DNA from: a virus
Direction: 5' to 3' (one strand)
Virus record (IMG/VR): IMGVR_UViG_3300042463_001626
Coordinates: 1 to 23,004 of that record
Length of the DNA: 23,004 nucleotides
Shown here: in pieces, positions 2,650 to 23,004 of the stretch
Layout of the letters: each line of letters starts with the position of its first letter
Numbering within the stretch: the first letter of the stretch is position 1
Position numbers and translations under genes: made by a program
Notes under the pieces: model-generated
Seen by the model: only the letters and a program-made list of their open reading frames with translations
Database searches by the model: none
What the model was told of the DNA's origin: nothing

Positions 2650-4355
2650 ACTAATCGGTCCATAAAGGTATCACTCAAGTATTGGCGCGAATACTTAAGG
2701 AAATCCTTAGCACGCGAATCAAGTATGTAGGTCGTACTATAATCGTCAGCATGGCGTGTAGTACGACCTGCACTTTGTTCAAGCACTGATGCAGTTTCTC
2801 CAAAGTAAACATCGCGTGCAAATTTGAATCGGCGAGCCCATAGCGGACTGCCCACATTTGGAAATGCTAGCTTGGTAATTATGTTAAATCGACCTTTATC
2901 ATCAGAAAGGTCAATACCCGTGAATAGCGATGGCCCCACAAGCACGGAGTCGCTTGGCTTGTTTTCCAGTTGATCAAGCAGCTCAAGTTTTTCAGCAGTA
3001 TTTGAATATGTTAGTAGACGATGTGAATGTCGGCTGTTAGCTTTAAGTTCTTCGGCAATCAAGTGGGTTACCGTATGAATAACACCGCGCTCATTGGAAT
3101 GCGAATCAAGCAGTTCGTCAATTTTCTTTACAGCTTTATTGACACTGTCGCGCCCGCCTGAATATCCCATGTCAGCTGTATTGCACAGCACAATTGGAGA
3201 TTTGTTTGAGTCCCACTCACTATTTACATTGATGATATAGCACTTTGCAGGATCAAGCTTCCAGCGGTCAATCAACAGCTTTGGCTGAAGCGTAGCGGAC
3301 ATGTAAATACGAGTACGCGCAAAGTTTCGGAAGTGTCGATGAAACAGCAGATGGTCCGACATATTGTGGTATGCACGTTCACCGTCGTCATCGCATACAA
3401 CAAGATTGCGTAGACCGTGTTGTGCAATCATTTGCGTATAATCCTCGACTTTACAATGATGGTCCTTAATATCATCGGCAAGCGTGAATAGACTCTTTAC
3501 TTCGCGCGGTAGGTTCTTGTGCCAAGCCGTCAAGTTAGCATTGTCATATCCGCCAGGAATGTAAGAAGATGAAAGGCTTGTTTTGATTGTTTCAAGCGTG
3601 TTCTTTACAAGCGTATATTCTGCATAAACAGTTTGCAGTGCAACATGATGGTCATGCGGATTTGACTTTTCCGGAATCTTTAGCGCTTCAGTGATTGCTG
3701 TGTAAAGCGGCTTTGTAGGTACATCATATGCATGTCCAATTTTATTTAGAGCACCAATGACTCCGTTTATACGATCGGCTGTTTCAGGCTTTAAGCGACA
3801 TGCAAAATGACTTTCCACAATGTCAGGTATCTTATGCGCTTCGTCACAAATGATTACGTCACGTGTACGAAATGGAGACTTGTCGCCCATCTTGCGCAGG
3901 ACATAATTCATTTGAATTAGCCAATAGGAATAATTCATTAGTGAACGCGGAGATTGAATAGCAGCACGCCGGCGCTGAATGTAAGCGCAAGTTCCAGCGC
4001 AAGGTAATTCATTTGCCTCGGAGTATGATAATCCTAACGAACGGCAAACTCCTAGCGAGAATTTTTCTCCGTTAATGTCGCACGTGTATGTATCGACACC
4101 GCTGATTGATTTGACGTCGGAATGACGTGATTTGAACTTTACATTGCAATCATATTCATATTGTTGCTGTAAAGACTTTTCGCTTGTTAGAAGATATGAC
4201 ATATAGCCGCTCTCTGCCAAAATCTTAGAGAGTTCAAGCGCAATAAGACTCTTTCCTGTTCCTGTAGGCGCTTGAATGAATATGTCTTTCTTACCACTTG
4301 CCATTGCTTCACGCACGTGATCAAGGACATCTTGCTGTGCTGGCCGTAATTGCAT
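2646..4355 (-). CDS. XPD/DinG-like superfamily 2 helicase with Fe-S cluster motif
   Basis: A 569-residue protein from the ATG at 4355; an upstream in-frame TTG at 4382 was rejected because a promoter -10 lies inside that extension. Seen: Q-motif-like RPAQQ near residue 4, Walker A APTGTGKS (29-36), DEAH box CDEAHK (170-175), SAT-type motif III MSATLQ, and C-terminal motif VI QSAGRTTR. Between Walker A and DEAH are four Cys at about residues 92, 104, 119 and 123, the layout of the 4Fe-4S cluster of XPD/DinG/FancJ helicases. It should unwind DNA 5'-3' or resolve R-loops or branched DNA during replication or repair. It is the only minus-strand gene here and is convergent with phoH, sharing stop-codon bases. 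Confidence 0.88.
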   Translation of the reverse strand: MQLRPAQQDVLDHVREAMASGKKDIFIQAPTGTGKSLIALELSKILAESGYMSYLLTSEKSLQQQYEYDCNVKFKSRHSDVKSISGVDTYTCDINGEKFSLGVCRSLGLSYSEANELPCAGTCAYIQRRRAAIQSPRSLMNYSYWLIQMNYVLRKMGDKSPFRTRDVIICDEAHKIPDIVESHFACRLKPETADRINGVIGALNKIGHAYDVPTKPLYTAITEALKIPEKSNPHDHHVALQTVYAEYTLVKNTLETIKTSLSSSYIPGGYDNANLTAWHKNLPREVKSLFTLADDIKDHHCKVEDYTQMIAQHGLRNLVVCDDDGERAYHNMSDHLLFHRHFRNFARTRIYMSATLQPKLLIDRWKLDPAKCYIINVNSEWDSNKSPIVLCNTADMGYSGGRDSVNKAVKKIDELLDSHSNERGVIHTVTHLIAEELKANSRHSHRLLTYSNTAEKLELLDQLENKPSDSVLVGPSLFTGIDLSDDKGRFNIITKLAFPNVGSPLWARRFKFARDVYFGETASVLEQSAGRTTRHADDYSTTYILDSRAKDFLKYSRQYLSDTFMDRLV

Positions 4356-4361
4356 ATCCTT

Positions 4362-4389
4362 ATTATAACAAACTGTAGCCAAATGTAAA
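4362..4389 (-). promoter_or_regulatory. Sigma70-type promoter for the helicase gene
   Basis: On the minus strand, TTTACA (4389-4384), a 16 bp spacer and TATAAT (4367-4362). Only six bases (AAGGAT) separate the -10 from the helicase ATG at 4355, so transcription should start at or within a base or two of the start codon. This makes a leaderless mRNA likely unless another upstream start site is used. Confidence 0.65.
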
Positions 4390-4414
4390 TGAGAAAAATT
4401 TTTGAATTTTGTTA

Positions 4415-4443
4415 TTTACATGTGCGTGAAGTCTCTGTATAAT
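4415..4443 (+). promoter_or_regulatory. Sigma70-type promoter, divergent from the helicase promoter
   Basis: TTTACA at 4415-4420, a 17 bp spacer and TATAAT at 4438-4443. It lies back to back with the minus-strand promoter at 4362-4389 and uses the same -35 hexamer. Unlike the other plus promoters it is not followed by the CTGTAAGG leader. The first ATG is at 4464, 20 nt after the -10. Confidence 0.7.
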
Positions 4444-4463
4444 AATTAAAAGTTCATTCGACG

Positions 4464-4623
4464 ATGGCTGCATTAAAGGCTGCGAAAAAAACCATGATAT
4501 CCTCAAGATCCACCGAAGGTTCCCGAAGGGATCATCAAATACCTCAAGATCCATGAAAGGTGGATTAGAGTCATTTTTCCGACCTTCAACGGATATTCTG
4601 TCAGTAAAATGCCGAAAAAGTGA
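4464..4623 (+). pseudogene. Possible frameshifted small gene between two promoters
   Basis: The ATG at 4464 opens MAALKAAKKTM and continues to a TGA at 4554-4556 (30 residues). From about 4498 the +1 frame reads YPQDPPKVPEGIIKYLKIHE and on to WIRVIFPTFNGYSVSKMPKK, ending at 4621-4623, which looks much more like protein. Dropping one base after the internal ATG would join the two into a protein of about 52 residues filling the space between the promoters at 4415 and 4643. The direct repeat CTCAAGATCCA occurs at 4502 and 4543, in different frames. This may be a decayed gene, a sequence error or chance; nothing is recognised. Confidence 0.3.
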
Positions 4624-4642
4624 AAATTTATGAAATTTCTTA

Positions 4643-4671
4643 TTTACATCTAAGAATATTCCGTTTATAAT
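4643..4671 (+). promoter_or_regulatory. Conserved promoter/leader, copy 1
   Basis: TTTACA at 4643-4648, a 17 bp spacer and TATAAT at 4666-4671, preceded by A/T-rich sequence that may act as an UP element. It is followed by CTGTAAGGAAACTACCAC and the ATG at 4694. AAGG in the leader serves as Shine-Dalgarno. Five further copies with the same layout follow in the window. Confidence 0.85.
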
Positions 4672-4693
4672 GATCCTGTAAGGAAACTACCAC

Positions 4694-4968
4694 ATGATTA
4701 TCGAATCTGCCAAAATTAACGCAAACAAATTTCGTTGGGAAAACACTGTCGGAACGGCAATGGCAAGTGATCTGGCTACCGTGCAGGTCAAGTCCCAATT
4801 CATCGGATTCATGATTGGTCGGACGATCAAGGACTGTATGTTATTGGCAAGAAAGAGAACAAAGCGTTCATCTTCTCCCGAGCAATGCGAGGTCACGAAA
4901 ACGAAATTCTTGGATGGCTTTTCAACTCCGTCGATTATAAGTTCAGCTTGGTAATCTTCAACGATTGA
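4694..4968 (+). pseudogene. Small phage protein, apparently frameshifted (or sequence error)
   Basis: The ATG 22 nt after the -10, with the conserved AAGG leader, is surely the intended start. The frame reads MIIESAKINANKFRWENTVG, then TAMASDL, and continues to a stop at 4952-4954 as an unconvincing Ser/Lys/Arg-rich tail. Shifting by -1 at about 4774 (CTGGCTACC read as if CTGGGCTACC) gives GYRAGQVPIHRIHDW, then LYVIGKKENKAFIFSRAMRG, then HENEILGWLFNSVDYKFSLV and a stop at 4966-4968, giving a coherent protein of about 91 residues. The simplest reading is loss of one G from a GGG run. No slippery heptamer is present, so programmed frameshifting is less likely. Function unknown. Confidence 0.6.
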
Positions 4969-4978
4969 TAAATATAAA

Positions 4979-5596
4979 ATGCTATCATTCAAAACATACA
5001 TCGCCGAAGGATTCACTAACCTAATCCTTTCTAAGCACGACAAAGATCGTGAAAAATATGCGACCCAAGTATGGGATATGCTGCAGGTGTCGTATGCTAA
5101 GATTGGCGGAATCAAAGGTTCTGGATTCTCTTCGGTGGATGATATGATCAAAACAATTCCGTTTTGGAAACTATACTTTGATGGTGATCGTCTTAAAACT
5201 GTCATTCTTTACAAGGATCGTGGCGGACGCAAGGCAATTGCTGTTGGAACTGATGGATCGCAAAAAGCACTGAAAGTTTTGGCTGATGTTATGCGTGAAT
5301 CCTTTAAGGTCTCGTTTGGCGAATACTCTAAAGGTTTGCTGGCATTCATCATCAAGACAGTGCCACGTGAATTGCTGAAATCGTATGCTATTCCGAATAA
5401 AAAGGTTTCGGATATTCTTGATGATTCGGTGATTATCATTCCTACACAAGAATATGTAAATGATAACCTACAGTCTGTAGATCAGGCAATGTATACTCGC
5501 TTTAAAGATTGGCGTGAGTATTTCTATGTGAGAGAAATTGGAGGCACTCCTCTACTTAAGATGGCGATTGGAACGCCTGGAAAGCCAATCTTATGA
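4979..5596 (+). CDS. Hypothetical protein, possibly GNAT-acetyltransferase-like
   Basis: A 205-residue protein. The start MLSFKTYIAEGF resembles the N-termini of many T4-like phage proteins. The central part, YAKIGGIKGSGF, WKLYFDGDRLKTVILYKDRG and then RKAIAVGTDGS, alternates strands and turns in a way reminiscent of a GNAT fold, but the acetyl-CoA pyrophosphate-loop motif is not clear. The second half (from about residue 115) has no motif I recognise. The stop overlaps the next start (ATGA), so it is translationally coupled to the esterase-like gene. No good Shine-Dalgarno precedes the ATG. Function unknown. Confidence 0.6.
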   Translation: MLSFKTYIAEGFTNLILSKHDKDREKYATQVWDMLQVSYAKIGGIKGSGFSSVDDMIKTIPFWKLYFDGDRLKTVILYKDRGGRKAIAVGTDGSQKALKVLADVMRESFKVSFGEYSKGLLAFIIKTVPRELLKSYAIPNKKVSDILDDSVIIIPTQEYVNDNLQSVDQAMYTRFKDWREYFYVREIGGTPLLKMAIGTPGKPIL

Positions 5597-6186
5597 TCGT
5601 GTATTTACATGGCTTCAACAGTGGGCATGATCCACACAATGTTAAGATTACTGCTCTGCGTAAACTTGACAAGGAAGTCCTTGGATTTTCATATGATACA
5701 TTCTCTCCACGCGAAGAAGTCATACGGTCCATTGTTGATCGTATTAAGGAATATGCAGATGACCTACTAATCGTCGGAACGAGTCTTGGTGCATATTATG
5801 CTGATGCATGTGCTAAGGCTTTAGGAGTTCCATGCGTGCTGATCAATCCGTGTGTCGATCCTTACAACGCTTTTTCGGATCGTTCGCTTGAGACTGAATA
5901 TGTCAATTATGTACATAAGACAGTTTCTCGTTTGACATCCGAAACTGTGGAATCCTGGAAAGGACATTCCATGACAGAGACCGTCGGGCATACATACATT
6001 CCGCTCGTTTTGCTAGCTGACGGCGACGAAGTATTTGATTCGAGTGAAACTGCCGAAACACTGCGGAATTATGAGGTAATGAGGTTTTTAGGTGGAACTC
6101 ATCGTTTTGAACAAATTGAGGATTCGGTAAAATCTATTGAAATTTACCGAAACATGTGCAAAATTGCCGCAAATCTCAATTTTTGA
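5593..6186 (+). CDS. YqiA-like alpha/beta-hydrolase (esterase)
   Basis: A 197-residue protein. Seen: oxyanion-side strand MIVYLHGFNSGHD at the N-terminus, nucleophile elbow GTSLGAYYA with Ser64, acid region LLADGDEVFD (Asp143 or Asp145) and C-terminal GGTHRF with His170. These positions and the length match the UPF0227/YqiA group of small alpha/beta-hydrolases. A serine esterase activity is expected; the substrate is unknown. It is the last gene of its unit and is coupled to the preceding one by an ATGA overlap. Phage copies of this group are not well understood; a role in cleaving host metabolites or surface esters would be speculation. Confidence 0.85.
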   Translation: MIVYLHGFNSGHDPHNVKITALRKLDKEVLGFSYDTFSPREEVIRSIVDRIKEYADDLLIVGTSLGAYYADACAKALGVPCVLINPCVDPYNAFSDRSLETEYVNYVHKTVSRLTSETVESWKGHSMTETVGHTYIPLVLLADGDEVFDSSETAETLRNYEVMRFLGGTHRFEQIEDSVKSIEIYRNMCKIAANLNF

Positions 6187-6216
6187 AACTTTTTTCACTT
6201 TTGGTGCATTTTCTTG

Positions 6217-6245
6217 TTTACATTGGTCGGTTTTCCGTTTATAAT
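6217..6245 (+). promoter_or_regulatory. Conserved promoter/leader, copy 2
   Basis: TTTACA at 6217-6222, a 17 bp spacer and TATAAT at 6240-6245, followed by CTGTAAGGCAACCACTACAA and the ATG at 6271. Directly upstream is the T-rich block AAACTTTTTTCACTTTTGG (from 6186) shared with copies 4, 5 and 6; here no good left hairpin arm was found, so termination is doubtful at this boundary. Confidence 0.87.
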
Positions 6246-6270
6246 AATCCTGTAAGGCAACCACTACAAA

Positions 6271-6531
6271 ATGACCAATTTACAAATTCTTAAGTCTGAT
6301 TTAGAAATGCATGTCGCTCGAAGGGAGCAGCTGGCAAATGGCAATGGCGGATTCTTTATTCGACGTGAAGGGTATCCAGTGACTGGTGTTCTTGCCAGTT
6401 ATGATAAGATCATTGTATCTCTTAAAAAAGAAATTGCCGATCTTGAAATAAAGAAGACTGCGCGTAAGCAGCCGCAGAAAAAGACCACGACCAAGAAGAA
6501 AACCTCTAGCAAAAAGAAAGCCGCTAAATGA
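6271..6531 (+). CDS. Small protein with Lys-rich tail
   Basis: An 86-residue protein: an N-terminal two-thirds predicted mainly helical with a short central loop (LANGNGGFFIRREGYPVTG), then a tail made almost entirely of Lys, Thr, Ser and Ala (KKTTTKKKTSSKKKAAK). Such tails resemble histone H1 C-termini and usually bind nucleic acid non-specifically. It is the first gene after a strong promoter and overlaps the RNA ligase start by ATGA, so it is made together with the ligase. A role as a nucleic-acid-binding partner is inference only. Family not recognised. Confidence 0.75.
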   Translation: MTNLQILKSDLEMHVARREQLANGNGGFFIRREGYPVTGVLASYDKIIVSLKKEIADLEIKKTARKQPQKKTTTKKKTSSKKKAAK

Positions 6532-7559
6532 AACTTGCCTCAGTTGAACTCGTAAAAGAAATCAAACCTCATTCAAATGCTGACTCGCTTGAGATCGCCG
6601 TTGTCCTTGGGTATGAATGTATCGTACCAATCGGTAAGTTTTCGCCGGGACAAGCTGTTGTGTTGATTCAGCCTGACGTTGTGCTTCCAGATGCTCCATG
6701 GGCAGAGGTTTTCCGGGCGCGATCAAATCGTGTCAAGGCTATGAAGCTGCGTGGAGTTTGGAGCTTCGGTATTGTCCTCAGTGTATTTGATATCGTCGAT
6801 CACAACTCACGCGGTAGTGCGCAGCTGAAGCGTTGGCTGCTTCCAATTAACATCGGAAAGGATATCTCTGAGGAAATTGGAGTCGCTAAGTATGAACCTC
6901 CCGCGCCAAAGTCTCTTGACGCTGCAGGACACTTGCCGTCTAGAATGCCAAAGACCGACGAAGAGCGTTATCAAAACCTGACTGACAGCCTGCCATACGG
7001 CGAACATGTTGACGTCACGCTGAAGATTGACGGTCAAAGCGCTACTTACTTCTGTATCCGTGACGCGAATGCTGAAGGTGGATGGCGCACTGGAATTTGT
7101 TCTCGATCTCTTGAGATTAAGCCTGAGTGCAATAACAATTACACGCTCGCTGAACGTAAGTACAACATTCTCGAAAAGCTCAAGAACTATTGTACGTACC
7201 ATAACGTCAGCCTTGCACTACGTGGCGAGGTTTACGGGCAAGGCATTCAAGCCTTTGATGCAAATCCACACTCTAAGCTCCCGCTTGACTTTGCAGCATT
7301 TAGCGTATGGAACCACGACACTCTAGCTTATGAAGGTCCCAATGACCCACATTACTACGAAAAGGTAGCAGCCGCTACGGTTGGCGAAATTCCCGTTGTA
7401 CCGATGGTCGAGCGTCAGGTAGTTCTTACGTCTGAACTGATTGAAAAGTATGCACGTGGAATCGACAAGATTGAAGGCAAGCGTTTTGAAGGAGTTGTGA
7501 TTAAGCATTCGCTTGGTAGCTTCAAAGTCATCAACCTTTCCTACGACGAACGCAAGTAA
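6528..7559 (+). CDS. ATP-dependent RNA ligase, DRB0094/Rnl5-like
   Basis: A 343-residue protein. An N-terminal domain of about 100 residues (KLASVELVKEIKPHSNADSL) looks like the OB-fold extension of the DRB0094/Rnl5 group. The nucleotidyltransferase domain has motif I LKIDGQS with nucleophile Lys166, a motif III-like LRGEVYGQG (231-239), motif IV EGVVIK (321-326) and motif V SFKVIN (332-336) near the C-terminus. The enzyme should adenylate itself with ATP and seal 3'-OH/5'-phosphate RNA ends, for example nicks in cut tRNA. It overlaps both neighbours. A tRNA/RNA-repair role fits with CCA transferase and RtcB further on. Confidence 0.9.
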   Translation: MKLASVELVKEIKPHSNADSLEIAVVLGYECIVPIGKFSPGQAVVLIQPDVVLPDAPWAEVFRARSNRVKAMKLRGVWSFGIVLSVFDIVDHNSRGSAQLKRWLLPINIGKDISEEIGVAKYEPPAPKSLDAAGHLPSRMPKTDEERYQNLTDSLPYGEHVDVTLKIDGQSATYFCIRDANAEGGWRTGICSRSLEIKPECNNNYTLAERKYNILEKLKNYCTYHNVSLALRGEVYGQGIQAFDANPHSKLPLDFAAFSVWNHDTLAYEGPNDPHYYEKVAAATVGEIPVVPMVERQVVLTSELIEKYARGIDKIEGKRFEGVVIKHSLGSFKVINLSYDERK

Positions 7560-7795
7560 TGGATCACTTTGAATTTCGTTGGAAGCAGCGGCTCGGATAT
7601 GCATTGCGAAAATCTGAACGAAAAGATTTTCACAATGCTGTTCGTACCTCGCGCAAATTCATACATAAAGAACCAAACACGAGCGGAACTGTTTATGCAG
7701 TAAAGCATAAAGGCATAAACATTGTTGTTGTATATGACCCGCTTCTTGACATTCTGATTACTGTCCTACCACCGTCAAATAACCATAAGAAATAA
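7559..7795 (+). CDS. Small protein, possibly DUF4258/RelE-fold-like
   Basis: A 78-residue basic protein whose ATG overlaps the ligase stop (TAATG). An N-terminal helical, Arg/Lys-rich half (RWKQRLGYALRKSERKDF) leads to a beta-rich half GTVYAVKHKGINIVVVYDPL ending ILITVLPP. Helix followed by a sheet ending in a strand read as 'iiTvlp' is how small DUF4258 and RelE/YoeB-type proteins look, but sequence evidence is thin and no catalytic set can be named. Being coupled to an RNA ligase makes an RNA-related role attractive, as inference. Otherwise function unknown. Confidence 0.6.
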   Translation: MDHFEFRWKQRLGYALRKSERKDFHNAVRTSRKFIHKEPNTSGTVYAVKHKGINIVVVYDPLLDILITVLPPSNNHKK

Positions 7796-16174: not shown

Positions 16175-16203
16175 TTTACATTCCATGAAAAACCTGTTAA
16201 AAT
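16175..16203 (+). promoter_or_regulatory. Conserved promoter/leader, copy 5
   Basis: TTTACA at 16175-16180, a 17 bp spacer and TAAAAT at 16198-16203, followed by CTGTAAGGAAACCACCGAAT and the ATG at 16228. It drives the seven-gene repeat operon. Its spacer and -10 are close to those of copy 6 (AAAACCTGTTAAAAT), so copies 5 and 6 form a sub-type. Confidence 0.85.
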
Positions 16204-16227: not shown

Positions 16228-16620
16228 ATGACTCCAGTATACATTAACATCGGCAAATATGGCGACAAGCATTACTACAAGGACAAAGCAATGACGATAC
16301 ATCATCGTGAAGACGGTCCTGCGGTTGAATACCCCGATGGAGATAAATCTTGGTACATCAATGGAAAACTTCATCGTGAAGATGGTCCTGCGGTTGAATA
16401 TGCCGATGGAGGTAAAGCTTGGTTCATCGATGGAAAACGCCATCGTGAAGACGGTCCTGCAATTGAATTTGCCAATGGACGTAAAGCTTGGTACATCGAT
16501 GGAGTTTCACTAAGTGAACGAGAATTCCTCAAGCGAACTGCTCCAGAAATCGTCTTGACGATGGACGAGATTGCATCTAAGTTTGGGATTGAAGTGAGCA
16601 AGTTGAAGATCACTAAGTAA
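16228..16620 (+). CDS. HREDGPA-repeat protein A (3 repeats)
   Basis: A 130-residue protein made of a 25-residue head (MTPVYINIGKYGDKHYYKDK...), three 23-residue units (HREDGPAVEYADGGKAWFID type) and a 36-residue tail (LSEREFLKRTAPEIVLTMDE...). The unit resembles MORN-type repeats: a Gly at each turn and W(Y/F) as the conserved aromatic pair, so a chain of beta hairpins is expected. The tail segment MDEIASKFGIEVSKLKI looks like a short helical, helix-turn-helix-like motif. Similar HREDGPA repeats are known to me from phages and giant viruses, without established function. First gene of the operon and the only one with the AAGG leader. Confidence 0.85.
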   Translation: MTPVYINIGKYGDKHYYKDKAMTIHHREDGPAVEYPDGDKSWYINGKLHREDGPAVEYADGGKAWFIDGKRHREDGPAIEFANGRKAWYIDGVSLSEREFLKRTAPEIVLTMDEIASKFGIEVSKLKITK

Positions 16621-16657
16621 GTAAGTAAGGAACACGAAACGAACACTAAAACACATT

Positions 16658-17188
16658 ATGACTCCAGTATACATTATCATCAACGAATACAGAAGTAAGC
16701 ATTACTACAAGGACAAAGCAATGACGATACATCATCGTGAAGACGGTCCTGCAATTGAACATGCCAATGGAGGTAAAGTTTGGTACGTCAATGGAAAACT
16801 TCATCGTGAAGATGGTCCTGCTATTGAATATGCCGATGGAGGTAAAGAATGGTACTCTAATGGAAAACGCCATCGTGAAGACGGTCCTGCGGCTGAATAC
16901 GCTAATGTAGGTAAATTTTGGTACGTCGATGGAAAACTTCATCGTGAAGACGGTCCTGCAATTGAATTTGCCGGTGGACATAAAGAATGGTACGTCGATG
17001 GAAAACTTCATCGTGAAGACGGTCCTGCGGTTGAATATGCCGATGGGAGTAAATTTTGGTATCTCGATGGAGTGGAACACGATGAACAAGAATTCCTCAA
17101 GCGAACTGCTCCAGAAATCGTCTTGACGATGGACGAAATTGCTGCTAAGTTTGGTATCGAAGTTAGCAAGCTAAAGATCACTAAGTAA
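16658..17188 (+). CDS. HREDGPA-repeat protein B (5 repeats)
   Basis: A 176-residue paralogue with head MTPVYIIINEYRSKHYYKDK, five units and the tail LKRTAPEIVLTMDEIAAKFG. Its hinge after the last unit is VEHDEQEF rather than VSLSE. One unit has lost a turn Gly (ANVGKFW). It is the only copy with EIAAKFG in place of EIASKFG. It follows protein A after 37 bp containing repeats of GTAA and CGAACA. Confidence 0.85.
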   Translation: MTPVYIIINEYRSKHYYKDKAMTIHHREDGPAIEHANGGKVWYVNGKLHREDGPAIEYADGGKEWYSNGKRHREDGPAAEYANVGKFWYVDGKLHREDGPAIEFAGGHKEWYVDGKLHREDGPAVEYADGSKFWYLDGVEHDEQEFLKRTAPEIVLTMDEIAAKFGIEVSKLKITK

Positions 17189-17211
17189 GTAAGGAACCCA
17201 AAACGAACATT

Positions 17212-17742
17212 ATGACTCCAGTATACATTATCATCAACGAATACGGAAACAAGTATTACTACAAGGACCAAGCAATGACGATACGCCATCGTGAAGATGG
17301 TCCTGCGGTTGAACTTGCCGGTGGAGATAAATCTTGGTTCATCGATGGAAAACTTCATCGTGAAGACGGTCCTGCAATTGAATACGCCGATGGAGGTAAA
17401 GAATGGTACGTCGATGGAAAACTTCATCGTAAAGATGGTCCTGCAATTGAATATGCCGATGGGAGTAAAGTTTGGTACGTCGATGGAAAACGCCATCGTG
17501 AAGATGGTCCTGCAATTGAATATGCCAGTGGAGGTAAATCTTGGTTCGTCAATGGAAAACGCCATCGTGAAGATGGTCCTGCAGTTGAACTTGCCGGTGG
17601 ACATAAAGAATGGTACGTCGATGGAGTTTCACTAAGTGAACAAGAATTCCTCAAGCGAACTGCTAAAGAAATCGTCTTGACAATGGACGAGATTGCATCT
17701 AAGTTTGGGATTGAAGTGAGCAAGCTAAAGATCACTAAGTAA
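17212..17742 (+). CDS. HREDGPA-repeat protein C (5 repeats)
   Basis: A 176-residue paralogue with head MTPVYIIINEYGNKYYYKDQ, five units, a VSLSEQEF hinge and an LKRTAKEI tail. One unit reads HRKDGPA, the only change to the HREDGPA core in the array. It combines the head type of protein B with the hinge type of A and the tail type of E, so it looks mosaic. The spacer from B is 23 bp, with TAAGGAACCC about 20 bases before the ATG, rather far for a Shine-Dalgarno. Confidence 0.85.
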   Translation: MTPVYIIINEYGNKYYYKDQAMTIRHREDGPAVELAGGDKSWFIDGKLHREDGPAIEYADGGKEWYVDGKLHRKDGPAIEYADGSKVWYVDGKRHREDGPAIEYASGGKSWFVNGKRHREDGPAVELAGGHKEWYVDGVSLSEQEFLKRTAKEIVLTMDEIASKFGIEVSKLKITK

Positions 17743-17772
17743 GGAACCCAAAACGAACACGAAACGAACATT

Positions 17773-18234
17773 ATGACTCCAGTATACATTATCATCGGCA
17801 AATACGGAAACAAGCATTACTACAAGGACAAAGCAATGACGATACTTCATCGTGAAGATGGTCCTGCGGCTGAACATGCCAATGGATGTAAAGAATGGTA
17901 CTCTAATGGAAAACATCATCGTGAAGACGGTCCTGCGGTTGAATATGCCAATGGACATAAAGCTTGGTTCATCGATGGAAAACTTCATCGTGAAGATGGT
18001 CCTGCAGTTGAACTTGCCGGTGGACATAAAGAATGGTACGTCAATGGAAAACGCCATCGTGAAGACGGTCCTGCGGTTGAATATGCCGATGGACATAAAG
18101 CTTGGTTCATCGATGGAGTTTCACTAAGTGAACAAGAATTCCTTCTTAAAACCGCTAAAGAAATCGTCTTGACGATGGACGAGATTGCATCTAAGTTTGG
18201 GATTGAAGTGAGCAAGCTGAAGATCCAGAAGTAA
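17773..18234 (+). CDS. HREDGPA-repeat protein D (4 repeats)
   Basis: A 153-residue paralogue with head MTPVYIIIGKYGNKHYYKDK, four units, VSLSEQEF hinge and the LLKTAKEI tail ending KLKIQK. Head, hinge and tail types all agree with those of protein G, the last copy, so these two are the closest relatives in the array. One unit carries Cys at the variable position (ANGCKEW). Spacer to C is 30 bp. Confidence 0.85.
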   Translation: MTPVYIIIGKYGNKHYYKDKAMTILHREDGPAAEHANGCKEWYSNGKHHREDGPAVEYANGHKAWFIDGKLHREDGPAVELAGGHKEWYVNGKRHREDGPAVEYADGHKAWFIDGVSLSEQEFLLKTAKEIVLTMDEIASKFGIEVSKLKIQK

Positions 18235-18274
18235 CGAACACGAAACGAACACGAAACGAACACTAAAACACATT

Positions 18275-18805
18275 ATGACTCCAGTATACATTAACATCGG
18301 CAAATATGGCGACAAGCATTACTACAAGGACAAAGCAATGACGATACGCCATCGTGAAGACGGTCCTGCTATTGAACTTGCCGATGGAGGTAAATCTTGG
18401 TTCGTCAATGGAAAACGCCATCGTGAAGACGGTCCTGCGGCTGAAGATGCCGATGGACATAAAGAATGGTTCATCGATGGAAAACATCATCGTGAAGACG
18501 GTCCTGCAATTGAATATGCCGGTGGAGGTAAAGCTTGGTACTCCAATGGAAAACTTCATCGTGAAGACGGTCCTGCAATTGAATATGCCGATGGGAGTAA
18601 ATTTTGGTTCGTCAATGGAAAACTTCATCGTGAAGACGGTCCTGCAGTTGAACATTCCGATGGAGGTAAAGAATGGTACGTCAATGGAGTGGAACACGGT
18701 GAACGAGAATTCCTCAAGCGAACTGCTAAAGAAATCGTCTTGACGATGGACGAGATTGCATCTAAGTTTGGCATTGAAGTGAGCAAGCTAAAGATCACTA
18801 AGTAA
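18275..18805 (+). CDS. HREDGPA-repeat protein E (5 repeats)
   Basis: A 176-residue paralogue with the head of protein A (MTPVYINIGKYGDKHYYKDK), five units, a VEHGEREF hinge and an LKRTAKEI tail. Head agrees with A, hinge type with B and F, tail with C, so it is the clearest mosaic. One unit has an unusual acidic AEDADGHKEW. The 40 bp spacer before it contains three CGAACA(C) repeats and no Shine-Dalgarno. Confidence 0.85.
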   Translation: MTPVYINIGKYGDKHYYKDKAMTIRHREDGPAIELADGGKSWFVNGKRHREDGPAAEDADGHKEWFIDGKHHREDGPAIEYAGGGKAWYSNGKLHREDGPAIEYADGSKFWFVNGKLHREDGPAVEHSDGGKEWYVNGVEHGEREFLKRTAKEIVLTMDEIASKFGIEVSKLKITK

Positions 18806-18839
18806 GTAAGGAACCCAAAACGAACACGAAACGAACATT

Positions 18840-19163
18840 ATGACTCCAGTATACATTATCATCAACGAATACGGAAACAAGCATTACTACAAGGACAAAG
18901 CAATGACGATACGCCATCGTGAAGACGGTCCTGCGGTTGAACTTGCCGATGGGAGTAAAGCTTGGTACTCTAATGGAAAACGCCATCGTGAAGATGGTCC
19001 TGCGGTTGAATACCCCGATGGACATAAAGTTTGGTATCTCGACGGAGTGAAACACGGTGAACAAGAATTCCTTCTTAAAACCGCTAAAGAAATCGTCTTG
19101 ACGATGGACGAGATTGCATCTAAGTTTGGGATTGAAGTGAGCAAGCTCAAGATCCAGAAGTAA
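18840..19163 (+). CDS. HREDGPA-repeat protein F (2 repeats)
   Basis: A 107-residue paralogue, the shortest, with head MTPVYIIINEYGNKHYYKDK, only two units, VKHGEQEF hinge and LLKTAKEI tail ending KLKIQK. The loss or gain of whole 69 bp units without frame damage is shown most plainly here. Both ends remain intact, so this is not a broken gene. Confidence 0.85.
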   Translation: MTPVYIIINEYGNKHYYKDKAMTIRHREDGPAVELADGSKAWYSNGKRHREDGPAVEYPDGHKVWYLDGVKHGEQEFLLKTAKEIVLTMDEIASKFGIEVSKLKIQK

Positions 19164-19192
19164 CGAACCCGAAACAAACACTAAAACACATT

Positions 19193-19654
19193 ATGACTCC
19201 AGTATACATTATCATCGGCAAATACGGAAACAAGCATTACTACAAGGACAAAGCAATGACGATACTTCATCGTGAAGATGGTCCTGCAGTTGAACTTGCC
19301 GGTGGACATAAAGAATGGTACGTCAATGGAAAACGCCATCGTGAAGACGGTCCTGCGGTTGAATATGCCGATGGAGGTAAAGCTTGGTTCATCGATGGAA
19401 AACGCCATCGTGAAGACGGTCCTGCGGTTGAACTTGCCAGTGGAGGTAAAGAATGGTACGTCAATGGAAAACGCCATCGTGAAGACGGTCCTGCGGTTGA
19501 ACTTGCCGATGGATGTAAAGCTTGGTTCATCGATGGAGTTTCACTAAGTGAACAAGAATTCCTTCTTAAAACCGCTAAAGAAATCGTCTTGACGATGGAC
19601 GAAATTGCATCTAAGTTTGGGATTGATGTAAGCAAGCTAAAGATCTCTAAGTAA
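19193..19654 (+). CDS. HREDGPA-repeat protein G (4 repeats)
   Basis: A 153-residue paralogue, last of the seven, with head MTPVYIIIGKYGNKHYYKDK, four units, VSLSEQEF hinge and LLKTAKEI tail, ending KLKISK and with EI replaced by DV-type change (FGIDVSKL). Like D it has a Cys at a variable site (ADGCKAW). It is followed after 22 bp by an unrelated gene in the same unit. Confidence 0.85.
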   Translation: MTPVYIIIGKYGNKHYYKDKAMTILHREDGPAVELAGGHKEWYVNGKRHREDGPAVEYADGGKAWFIDGKRHREDGPAVELASGGKEWYVNGKRHREDGPAVELADGCKAWFIDGVSLSEQEFLLKTAKEIVLTMDEIASKFGIDVSKLKISK

Positions 19655-19676: not shown

Positions 19677-20024
19677 ATGAATCGTACAAGTAAACTATCT
19701 AGGCTTTTTAAATTCTTCTGGATGTCTCAAGCTGAACCTGATGAGACATGGGATAAACTATTGAATCTCCTGATTGATAAAGGAACTGTTACAAAAGTAG
19801 ATAACTTCACAATTACATTCGACAACGCCTTTACTGTTTGGACCTCCAATCACCCATACGCTAGTGGAATCCTTTATGTGTACAAAGGTAAGTACACTGA
19901 CGAGAGACTACACTGCTCTAAGGCAACTAAAATTCGACTAGAGGATTTTTATTACAAATATCTAGAAGATACAAAAGCTCAAAGTTATGTAGAGAAAGAA
20001 CTAAAGATCTATAAGAACAAGTAA
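19677..20024 (+). CDS. Hypothetical phage protein
   Basis: A 115-residue protein with a basic, aromatic N-terminus (SKLSRLFKFFWMSQ), helix WDKLLNLLIDKG, strands with FTITFDNAFTVWTSNHPYAS and a basic C-terminal part (CSKATKIRLEDFYYKYL). The block 'vWtSNhPYAsG...' followed by 'SkaT..RL' recalls a small conserved phage protein of unknown function; this is from memory and uncertain. It begins the non-repeat part of the operon, 22 bp after protein G, with AAGGAA about 17 nt before the ATG. Confidence 0.68.
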   Translation: MNRTSKLSRLFKFFWMSQAEPDETWDKLLNLLIDKGTVTKVDNFTITFDNAFTVWTSNHPYASGILYVYKGKYTDERLHCSKATKIRLEDFYYKYLEDTKAQSYVEKELKIYKNK

Positions 20025-20055: not shown

Positions 20056-20607
20056 ATGAAACTAATGAAACTAATGACAATCGTTGTGGCTGCTCTTATG
20101 CTGCCTTCGTGTATTGAAGAAACCCAGCCAAGTAATGCCAGCGGCAGTGTCTCAAAGAAGACTGTTGAGGTATCAACTGATGCTGATGGTTGGACTGTAG
20201 AACAGAAGAATATTGCTGAACGACTCAAGCGTGATAATGTCGCTGGAGCAATCAAGCATCTGTATGTGATTAGTCCTTATAGTGGTCAGGTGATTCTGTA
20301 TTCCACCGTGAAAGGTAAGGTCACTTCATCTGGTAAGCGACTAACTCCTACAAGTGTATCAGCGGGTGCTTGGGAGTATGTCAACAGTCCTCATAGTGGT
20401 ATGGGTGTCAATATTAACGGGCAGACAAAATACACATCAGAAGTGCTACAAGATGATGGCTCTTATGGCAGTTCATGTGAATACATTTATTGGTTCAGCT
20501 CTAAGGGAACTTTCCATAGTCACTTCTTCACTGGTGGACAAATCATCCATGTTTCTGATCAACCAATTGCTGTAAAGAACATCACTCTTAACCTCGAAGA
20601 CCGCTAA
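20056..20607 (+). CDS. Phage lipoprotein with conserved beta-rich domain
   Basis: A 183-residue protein with a lipoprotein signal MKLMKLMTIVVAALMLPSC, lipidated Cys19 (lipobox LPSC) and Ser/Thr-rich linker. The mature domain contains WTVEQKNIAERLKRDN, KHLYVISPYSGQVILYSTV, GKVTSSGKRLTP, VLQDDGSYGSS and GGQIIHVSDQPI, segments I recognise from a conserved lipoprotein family of Gram-negative phages whose function is unknown. It should be anchored in the periplasmic side of the cell envelope. Being made from a strong promoter together with another lipoprotein, a role in altering the host envelope, for example superinfection exclusion, is a possibility only. Confidence 0.85.
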   Translation: MKLMKLMTIVVAALMLPSCIEETQPSNASGSVSKKTVEVSTDADGWTVEQKNIAERLKRDNVAGAIKHLYVISPYSGQVILYSTVKGKVTSSGKRLTPTSVSAGAWEYVNSPHSGMGVNINGQTKYTSEVLQDDGSYGSSCEYIYWFSSKGTFHSHFFTGGQIIHVSDQPIAVKNITLNLEDR

Positions 20608-20608
20608 T

Positions 20609-21073
20609 ATGAAAACCGTTGTATATATTTTTCTCTCTCTGGTAGCATGTACTGTCATCATTGGATGTAGTATCCTGAGTAAAGGATGTTCTTATGTTGG
20701 CAAGGCAACTGCTGTCGTTGAACAACAACTAGATCCGGCTCTTCTCTTGAAGAAGTATGAATGGTTCAAAAATGTAGCAGCAGAATGTGATAAGAAACTT
20801 GCTGATGTTCAGGTTTATAAGTCCCGTCTCACTAGTATGGAGAAGTCCTATGAAGGCACCTCTCGTAAGGATTGGGATCGAACTGATAAAGAACAGTTTA
20901 ATCTATGGGAGCAAGAAGTTGCGGGTGTCGTTGCCAGTTATAACAGCCTAGCTGCTGAATATAATGCAGCCATGTCCAAGATCAACTATGCCTTTACCAA
21001 TATCGGATCTCTCCCAAAGGGAGCAGCTGAACCATTGCCGCGAGAGGTGCGATCATATACTCTTTCCTTTTAA
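20609..21073 (+). CDS. Phage lipoprotein, helical
   Basis: A 154-residue protein starting one base after the previous stop. N-terminus MKTVVYIFLSLVACTVIIGC offers two lipobox cysteines, Cys14 (LVAC) and Cys20 (IIGC). The mature part is almost all helix: LLLKKYEWFKNVAAECDKKL, YKSRLTSMEKSYEG, RTDKEQFNLWEQEVAGVVAS, NSLAAEYNAAMSKINY, ending LPKGAAEPLPREV. This matches a conserved phage lipoprotein family known to me from other Gram-negative phages, function unknown. It is the last gene of the repeat operon; a perfect terminator hairpin follows 27 bp on. Confidence 0.83.
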   Translation: MKTVVYIFLSLVACTVIIGCSILSKGCSYVGKATAVVEQQLDPALLLKKYEWFKNVAAECDKKLADVQVYKSRLTSMEKSYEGTSRKDWDRTDKEQFNLWEQEVAGVVASYNSLAAEYNAAMSKINYAFTNIGSLPKGAAEPLPREVRSYTLSF

Positions 21074-21100
21074 AAGAACTCTTAAGAGCTAAATCATCGA

Positions 21101-21128
21101 GGCGTATCCCCTCCGATACGCCTTTTTT
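21101..21128 (+). terminator. Strong Rho-independent terminator
   Basis: Perfect 8 bp stem GGCGTATC (21101-21108) and GATACGCC (21115-21122) with a six-base loop CCCTCC, followed by six T (21123-21128). It closes the repeat/lipoprotein operon. Confidence 0.93.
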
Positions 21129-21182: not shown

Positions 21183-21211
21183 TTTACATTCGTCTAAAAA
21201 CCTGTTAAAAT
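21183..21211 (+). promoter_or_regulatory. Conserved promoter/leader, copy 6
   Basis: TTTACA at 21183-21188, a 17 bp spacer and TAAAAT at 21206-21211, followed by CTGTAAGGAAACCACCAC and the ATG at 21234. The block GAACTTTTTTTGGATTTTATG (from 21152) lies upstream as in copies 2, 4 and 5, although here only a weak A/T hairpin can form and a separate terminator is already present at 21101. Confidence 0.87.
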
Positions 21212-22465: not shown

Positions 22466-23004
22466 ATGAAACTATTAGGTTCAAACAACAACATTCCGGT
22501 TTTTGGTGATCCATTACAAAATGCAGTAGATCAGATGTCGAACTGTCTCGTCAAGGGTGGCTACAAGGCTGCACTTATGGCTGACCATCACCTTGGTTAT
22601 GCTGTTCCTGTCGGCGGCGTAATTGCTTACAAGGACAAGATCTCGCCTTCAGGTGTAGGCTTCGACATCGGCTGCGGAAACAAGGCTGTGATGACTGACC
22701 TGCACTATGGAGATATCGCGGGTGATATGAACCGTATCATGGACGAAGTGTTTGATCGCATCTCGTTTGGAATCGGCCGCAAGAACAAGACTGATGTTGA
22801 CCATGCGTTGTTTGACAACGATGCTTGGACTGACATCGCTATGCTCGGCGAGCTGAAGGACATGGCGCGCGGACAGCTTGGTACTGTCGGCAGCGGTAAC
22901 CACTATGTCGATATCTTCTATGATCAAAAGGGTCGCGTTTGGATCGGAGTTCACTTTGGTTCACGTGGTCTTGGTCACAAGATTGCTTCGCATTACATCA
23001 AGGC
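22466..23004 (+). CDS. rtcB: RtcB-type RNA ligase, 3' end outside the window
   Basis: The first 179 residues are present. Seen: ADHHLGYAVPVGGVIAYKDK (usual 'PDVHlG.g..iG.via'), GFDIGCG with Asp67 and Cys70 as metal ligands, GSGNHYVDI with Asn145-His146, and VHFGSRGLG with His163. RtcB joins 2',3'-cyclic-phosphate or 3'-phosphate RNA ends to 5'-OH ends using GTP and Mn2+. The Glu usually found three residues after the GNH His is Asp149 here. The guanylylated His and remaining ligands lie outside the window. Start chosen at 22466; an ATG at 22455 leads straight to a stop. The cREC gene upstream shares the unit. Confidence 0.92.
   Translation, partial: MKLLGSNNNIPVFGDPLQNAVDQMSNCLVKGGYKAALMADHHLGYAVPVGGVIAYKDKISPSGVGFDIGCGNKAVMTDLHYGDIAGDMNRIMDEVFDRISFGIGRKNKTDVDHALFDNDAWTDIAMLGELKDMARGQLGTVGSGNHYVDIFYDQKGRVWIGVHFGSRGLGHKIASHYIK

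Follow-up and report, generated by a model that had tools for sequence, protein, structure and literature searches.

A tandem array of predicted MORN-like repeat genes in a viral contig and its variation among large phages

Introduction

MORN repeats are defined as units of 23 residues and have been reported to serve as protein–protein interaction modules; MORN1 proteins dimerize via their C-termini (PMC7725318). In marine samples, these repeats are 37-fold enriched in long reads over assemblies (PMC9238414). In Bacillus subtilis, YwqK is annotated as the antitoxin to YwqJ. The ywqJ–ywqK genes have been treated as a toxin–antitoxin pair (PMC8321402). Among viruses, uncharacterized proteins with an HREDGPA-type repeat occur in Agrobacterium phage Atu_ph07, which carries the repeat at eight places, in Celeribacter phage P12053L and in giant viruses; the genes inspected in Atu_ph07 and P12053L, one from each, are short, with approximately two units. 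Jumbo phages also contain lineage-specific expansions, such as the ∼35 zinc-ribbon copies of Bacillus phage G (PMC7824862).

In this study, a tandem array of seven HREDGPA-repeat genes was analyzed in a 23 004-nucleotide stretch of viral DNA (IMG/VR record IMGVR_UViG_3300042463_001626; hereafter the window). The array proteins share their repeat with the Atu_ph07, P12053L and giant-virus proteins, whereas their heads and tails are different. As in the jumbo-phage expansions, large paralog families are found in large phages; however, those expansions have an unrelated fold and, as far as the available part of that account goes, repeat-unit shuffling is not described for them (PMC7824862).

Results

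Organization of the array

ORF calling placed seven co-oriented genes side by side on the + strand at positions 16228–19654: gene 1 (16228..16620; 130 residues, three units), gene 2 (16658..17188; 176 residues, five units), gene 3 (17212..17742; 176 residues, five units), gene 4 (17773..18234; 153 residues, four units), gene 5 (18275..18805; 176 residues, five units), gene 6 (18840..19163; 107 residues, two units) and gene 7 (19193..19654; 153 residues, four units). Every protein has a length of 25 + 23n + 36 residues, and the head and tail are nearly constant among the seven copies. The preliminary description of seven tandem genes of 61 + 23n residues, with 28 units and no frame errors, was confirmed by the ORFs, by unit alignment and by TRF, which recovered the 69 bp period independently. 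The 28 in-frame units comprise 27 distinct DNA sequences and 26 distinct protein sequences; frame, length and core are kept in all of them, and no array gene is broken.

A candidate σ70-type promoter, identified by its match to the consensus (TTTACA-N17-TAAAAT with TG before the −10 hexamer; 16175..16203, + strand), lies upstream of gene 1. Its hexamers recur at 21183–21211 with near-identical surroundings, and promoter-like sites were in total no more numerous in the region than in shuffles, so that the one strong promoter initially proposed for the array is retained here as a consensus match. The spacer between genes 4 and 5 (18233..18267, + strand) is composed of 11 bp AACGAACACGA repeats, and the spacers between genes 2–7 have modules in common with it; on inspection, no obvious Shine–Dalgarno sequence was found near the start codons in the gene 2–7 spacers. 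The array is followed on the same strand by a gene for a 115-residue protein of PHROG 16975, a group of unknown function (19677..20024), which, judging from its spacing, is probably co-transcribed with the array, and by two genes for putative lipoproteins with lipobox-like motifs seen on inspection (LPSC, 20056..20607; IIGC, 20609..21073), neither of which had a match in Pfam. The transcription unit likely ends at a candidate intrinsic terminator with a 10 bp stem followed by a T-run (21099..21124, + strand), and the array is a probable operon. No defence or counter-defence gene and no toxin gene was recognized among the array neighbours that were scanned, several of which belong to no known family.

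Predicted fold and family relationships

Structure prediction, suggested in the preliminary description, was performed for the gene 2 protein and gave a MORN-like hairpin solenoid (AlphaFold2, pLDDT 94.5). In this model, each unit forms one β-hairpin with strands at unit positions 8–10, 14–16, 18–19 and 22–23, and DSSP assigned the same strand pattern to all five units. Seven PDB structures matched with E ≤ 0.001; all are MORN-repeat proteins, namely MORN1 of T. brucei, T. gondii and P. falciparum and junctophilin-2, with low TM-scores of 0.28–0.41. Matches in BFVD included phage proteins with TM-scores of up to 0.80, as well as mimivirus and Harvfovirus proteins. Since the fold matches are to MORN proteins while the Pfam MORN profile (PF02493) gave no match at E ≤ 10, the term 'MORN-like' is used. 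The array proteins are predicted to be short MORN-like solenoids in which a constant head is followed by two to five β-hairpin units and a two-helix tail that is likewise constant.

The resemblance to MORN-repeat proteins (PF02493; MORN1 and junctophilins) covers the 23-residue period, found in 28 of 28 units, the β-hairpin in each repeat within a predicted elongated, twisted sheet and an NGK motif with an aromatic residue; however, an HREDGPA loop takes the place of the GxG motif, and the phage family consists of arrays of many short paralogs. The bacterial MORN_2 repeats (PF07661), to which YwqK belongs, are also short and of similar length, with 22 positions in the profile, but the array proteins do not match this profile and have no recognized toxin among their neighbours. 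Five of the seven array proteins score above the cut-off of DUF6745 (PF20530); this match is confined to profile positions ∼63–96 of 206, with ∼20–35 positions aligned, and the remainder of the domain is absent. A PDB sequence search with the array proteins yielded nothing significant, NCBIfam contained no match for the repeats and the PADLOC anti-phage defence models gave no match at E ≤ 1. A surface location, as first suggested, is unsupported, with no signal peptide or membrane segment apparent in the head region on inspection.

Conserved and variable positions of the unit

Alignment of the 28 units revealed a nearly invariant core (H1-R2-[E3]-D4-G5-P6-A7, G13, K15, W17 and G21), in which changes are silent (GAC/GAT at D4; GCG/GCA/GCT at A7). 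Amino-acid changes fall at unit positions 8, 10, 12, 14, 16 (preceding the Trp), 19 and 23, which bears out the earlier observation that variation lies at the turn and pre-Trp positions and is mostly silent in the HREDGPA core. From the predicted secondary structure and hairpin geometry, positions 8, 10, 14 and 16 were assigned to a variable face, and their side chains would lie on one side of the hairpin.

The proposed per-position comparison gave values that were not uniformly low. With units that are non-independent in the bootstrap and with recombination biasing such estimates, pN/pS was 2.57 at the variable face of the window array, 2.46 in G010, 1.61 in G011 and 1.32 in L106 (bootstrap pN − pS > 0 in each), whereas G013, G017 and L117 gave values of approximately 1 and no higher, which is compatible with relaxed constraint in these three. 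The core pN/pS was 0.03 in the window array and 0.03–0.39 over the arrays analyzed. When changes of distinct type were counted, the ratio of nonsynonymous to silent changes was 21:2 at variable codons versus 6:7 elsewhere (Fisher P = 0.005, post hoc). Codon bias was ruled out as the reason for the missing silent changes, as the remaining genes of this phage use NNC freely (GAT:GAC 134:104; AAT:AAC 96:87).

Linkage between codons was found at a distance of one to two codons only and was absent at three or more, indicating that the units are recombinational mosaics. Together with the face pN/pS above 1, this favours diversity over pure dosage, between which the preliminary description had not chosen. 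A diversity-generating retroelement was rejected as the source of variation: the variable positions carry sets of codons that represent shared haplotypes and are not adenine-derived, and no match to reverse transcriptase (PF00078) was found in ten contigs, which may be fragments, including the window, G002, G005, G007, G012 and G021.

Occurrence and exchange of array genes

The whole array is present in four further contigs of the same species (L010–L013) and partially in L017, with 0–5 differences within the array. The seven-gene count is fixed among these contigs and the array is identical or near-identical in all of them, so that no rapid change is seen at the window locus. In L013, gene 3 differs by five bases (17445–17516) that match a second array, which is consistent with gene conversion.

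The copy-number variation that had been sought in relatives was found in a second phage species, a single site of which holds no repeat gene in L099 and L104, one in L105 (identical to L016) and two in G005 and G008; these states come from different samples and their junctions are clean. Between G005 and G008, one gene changes from five to four units, with a hybrid unit. The insertion at this site left a 120 bp duplication with microhomology joints, and in G005 a truncated head is fused to the target gene. Uniformly low dN/dS with fixed copy number, which had been named as evidence against selected diversity, was not found, although the gene count does not vary within the window species.

Gene 6 of the window is identical to the first G005 gene (G005:162597–162920) over the first 290 of 324 nucleotides, whereas the two phages otherwise show ∼66% DNA identity over one 2.6 kb stretch only. 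G005 is not a fragment of the window phage genome, as it has separate, diverged versions of the genes that the two have in common, with protein identities of 37% for PhoH, 47% for the CCA enzyme and 66–77% for two adjacent genes. The repeat-gene family is absent from G021, a related 207 kb phage contig.

Numerous unrelated large phages carry similar arrays, with larger arrays in viral contigs of 157–402 kb, and their tails differ between phage lineages. The array showed no DNA similarity to sequenced phages. As a separate phage-wide tag, the tail motif gave one weak match, in a crAss-like phage, and a regular-expression scan of other proteins in the fetched contigs gave none. No paper describing such arrays was found in the literature searched. 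This type of operon is widespread in large phages rather than a one-off.

Discussion

The array is tentatively interpreted as an accessory family of genes that has diversified through recombination and whose likeliest role, held at slightly less than even probability, is a co-expressed repertoire of MORN-like protein-binding adaptors or inhibitors. In this interpretation, units recombine within and between genes, and whole genes are gained, lost and copied between phages via short-homology joints; substitutions build up on one hairpin face of an otherwise maintained scaffold. The proteins would be expressed together as binding adaptors or inhibitors, with targets, such as toxins or the defence proteins of a host, that differ from one host or competitor to another. 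The anatomy of the array, its predicted fold class, the mosaic nature of the units, the variation in copy number, the sharing of genes between phages and the lack of the family in a related contig are shown here; we infer that the variable side chains lie together on one face, that this face binds something and that its partners are host or competitor proteins. These MORN-like binders possibly act in counter-defence.

The main competing explanation, somewhat unlikely in our estimation, is neutral or selfish expansion, in which the 69 bp repeats are a recombination hot spot, copies are acquired, lost and dispersed without conferring any benefit, and residues that are exposed undergo drift. Recombination of units and genes at short homologies, the lack of the family in G021, the truncated head fused in G005 and the face ratios near 1 in three arrays all agree with such drift. 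However, drift fits poorly with 28 intact units and no broken gene, a core pN/pS of 0.03, face ratios above 1 in four arrays and recurrence of arrays in many unrelated large phages. An assembly artefact or chimera is exceedingly improbable: repeats are hard to assemble and L013 differs from the other contigs by a tract matching the second array, but all seven genes are present again in four other contigs, which indicates that the array is not an artefact, and the gene-number states with clean junctions at the second-phage site come from different samples.

Two functional alternatives to a binding repertoire were also considered. A scaffold role, in the cytoplasm or the virion, for MORN-like rods that are required in large amounts and oligomerize through the tail would suit the C-terminal dimerization of MORN1 (PMC7725318), the nearly constant head and tail and the single probable operon; we regard it as improbable, because dosage needs no diversity on one face, the tails differ between lineages, and the family is missing from G021 and varies from zero to two genes at one site. 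Marginally less probable still is an array that serves as immunity or antitoxin genes against toxins that are secreted or mobile, comparable to YwqK and its single toxin. Its precedent is ywqJ–ywqK (PMC8321402), and in a Duganella contig a tandem HREDGPA array adjoins an MbeA-like relaxase gene, which places that array on mobile DNA; no toxin gene was recognized beside the window array, however, and Pfam MORN_2 gave no match.

A broader form of the repertoire reading, which we consider rather unlikely as a whole, is that large phages carry a self-renewing binding repertoire in which the exposed hairpin faces of arrayed MORN-like solenoids are combinatorially shuffled by recombination, selected for diversity and exchanged as cassettes between unrelated phages, neutralizing changing host or competitor proteins; it would parallel, on the phage side, the variable repertoires of repeat receptors, with no reverse transcriptase involved. 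If the repertoire reading is true, large phages have a general and modular means of producing and exchanging protein binders, which would account for repeat genes of this kind being so numerous in viral DNA yet nameless. Material for experiments is already at hand: a single operon offers seven naturally occurring variants of the scaffold, and one phage locus exists in natural zero-, one- and two-gene forms.

Array organization

The seven HREDGPA-repeat genes of the window, a virus record of 23,004 bases, lie head to tail on the plus strand (16228–19654, from ORF reading). Each encodes n 23-residue units between a 25-residue head and a 36-residue tail. Unit numbers in genes 1–7 are 3, 5, 5, 4, 5, 2 and 4, and unit-by-unit reading of the genes bore out the preliminary description, in which all 28 units were free of frame errors. 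The spacers are 23–40 nt long and are themselves made of GAACACGAAACGAACA-like modules. Since a consensus match marks a candidate promoter upstream of the array (16175–16203) and a candidate terminator lies downstream (21099–21124), the transcription unit likely extends over a further three small genes, of which two encode putative lipoproteins. A second copy of the candidate promoter was found just past the terminator (21183–21211), with the same hexamers, near-identical surroundings and a AAGGAAACCACC leader. Furthermore, translation of genes 2–7 may start in an unusual way, because no obvious Shine–Dalgarno sequence was seen by their ATG and the spacers (16621–19192) are A-rich ACGAACA modules.

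The same seven genes occur in four other contigs of the species (L010–L013), representing four metagenomes as judged from the record names, and part of them in a fifth (L017), with 0–5 base differences from the window across the array. The array is thus not an assembly artefact, a doubt raised in the preliminary description. Among the same-species contigs that extend the window, G002 holds another, two-gene array (proteins of 130 and 158 amino acids), which ends ∼5.6 kb upstream of window base 1. The five differences in gene 3 of L013 (17445–17516) jointly give an exact match to this G002-type second array, as expected from gene conversion or from local mis-assembly.

Predicted fold

The AlphaFold2 model of gene 2, calculated from this gene plus 25 relatives, had a mean pLDDT of 94.5 and contained short strands in every unit near positions 8–10, 14–16, 18–19 and 22–23. 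In a Foldseek search of the PDB, all seven matches at E ≤ 0.001 were MORN-repeat proteins, and among the structural neighbours in a viral library are giant-virus proteins that carry a MORN annotation. MORN repeats have been reported to be 23-residue β-hairpins that act as protein–protein interaction modules (PMC7725318); the array units resemble them in length and predicted strand pattern, but not in profile, as the Pfam MORN and MORN_2 profiles gave no match to the array proteins. Because of this, the proteins, whose PDB matches had modest TM-scores (0.28–0.41), are best described as MORN-like in predicted structure and are not placed in PF02493. The cytoplasm or the virion is a more likely location than secretion, since no hydrophobic stretch was seen on inspection of the head region.

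Variable positions and possible selection

At the protein level, unit positions 1, 2, 4–7, 9, 15, 17 and 21 are fixed, changes at them being silent (D4, A7), whereas positions 8, 10, 12, 14, 16, 19 and 23 vary. Of these, 8 and 10 belong to one strand of the hairpin and 14 and 16 to the strand paired with it, with the alternate residues Glu9 and Lys15 fixed; hairpin geometry would place these four variable positions on the same face. At this face, pN/pS was 2.57 in the window and 2.46, 1.61 and 1.32 in the arrays of contigs G010, G011 and L106, with bootstrap intervals of pN − pS above zero, and about 1 in G013, G017 and L117; at the near-invariant core it was 0.03–0.39. In a contrast picked post hoc from data already seen, distinct nonsynonymous and silent changes in the window numbered 21:2 at variable codons versus 6:7 elsewhere (Fisher P = 0.005). 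Codon bias was rejected as the reason for the missing silent changes, because NNC codons are freely used in the other genes of the phage. Taken together, these data are suggestive of diversifying selection but do not prove it, since the units lack independence and such estimates are disturbed by recombination.

Recombination, gain and loss

Linkage between variable codons across the 28 units was confined to distances of 1–2 codons (mean z 1.31), with none at three or more; the units are fine mosaics. Copy-number variation, which the preliminary description proposed looking for, was found in related phages, with zero, one or two genes at one site and a 69-bp unit difference. A second species, represented by G005 (177 kb) and G008 (42 kb), which are 99.5–99.9% identical where aligned, carries a two-gene array there; gene 2 differs between them by that single unit and a hybrid unit. 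One gene is present in L105 (the same locus as L016), and the site is empty, with a single 120-bp copy, in L099 and L104. In G005 and G008 a 120-bp sequence from the end of a phage gene is present on both sides of the array. The last array element is a head joined at HRED to EDAWKIAEK of this target gene, and short microhomology is seen at each joint (TCGTGA-GATG and GAAG). Such a structure would result if a template switch led out of the target and back into it during recombination-dependent replication. Beside the empty site, a 984-bp segment of L099 (1043–2022) is 88.5% identical to G005 between flanks at 99%, and the region is generally mosaic.

Exchange between phages was also indicated. 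No difference separates window gene 6 from gene 1 of G005 in the first 290 of 324 nt, and all six differences fall in the last 35 nt, although outside the arrays DNA similarity between the two phages is limited to one 2.6-kb stretch (66%) and one 56-base match, and homologous proteins are 24–77% identical. Such identity between phages that share almost no other DNA similarity means that this gene moved recently, either directly or via a third phage.

Distribution

Far larger sets than that of the window occur in unrelated viral lineages, with 45 HREDGPA matches in G010 (321 kb), 50 in G011 (157 kb) and at least 117 in G013 (402 kb), the contigs compared being fragments and E-values in the related-locus search being relative to the candidates only. 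Lineage-specific heads and tails surround the same repeat in these contigs. In G013, tandem HREDGPA genes at around 90–111 kb (L027) have heads with a different conserved, helical-looking region (REGVEPTPEVVREAALYGLDVEWAQ). The repeat occurs at eight places in Atu_ph07. HREDGPA genes are also found on contigs of bacterial genome assemblies, although some of these contigs may be phage sequence that was binned with bacteria. The Duganella contig L117 has six tandem genes (3747–7748) with an MbeA-like relaxase gene immediately after them, which suggests that the family travels on mobile elements too. Among the papers searched, none described the phage arrays; MORN repeats have been reported as 37-fold enriched in marine long reads versus assemblies (PMC9238414).

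Proposed role

The array unites a constant scaffold and variable positions with recombination, gain and loss, and exchange, and a related phage contig dispenses with it: no gene of the family is present in G021 (207 kb), the source of the empty locus L099. Expansion by recombination without any benefit, the main rival explanation, accounts for the mobility and drift. It accounts less well for a core held so strictly, for an array in which no gene is broken and for amino-acid changes being in excess on one face. We tentatively favour a constant scaffold with a variable protein-binding face, a reading that we regard as quite possible though short of probable; its partners would be variable host or competitor proteins, and several variants expressed together would give breadth.

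Other genes of the window

Three plus-strand genes (8355, 10375 and 10923) share the start peptide MKTIRHNTYETNSSSTH but no similarity beyond it, and the latter two have nearly identical 5′ coding DNA; genes with this start were absent from the G005, G007 and G012 DNA examined. The window also encodes PhoH (1882), an RNA ligase (6528), an HD-domain protein (11440), a CCA-adding enzyme (13539) and RtcB (22466), a set of RNA repair functions; no tRNA gene was found in this 23-kb stretch. At the start of the RtcB ligase gene, nine base differences are packed into 37 bp (22492–22528) between otherwise nearly identical contigs, which marks a short replaced tract.
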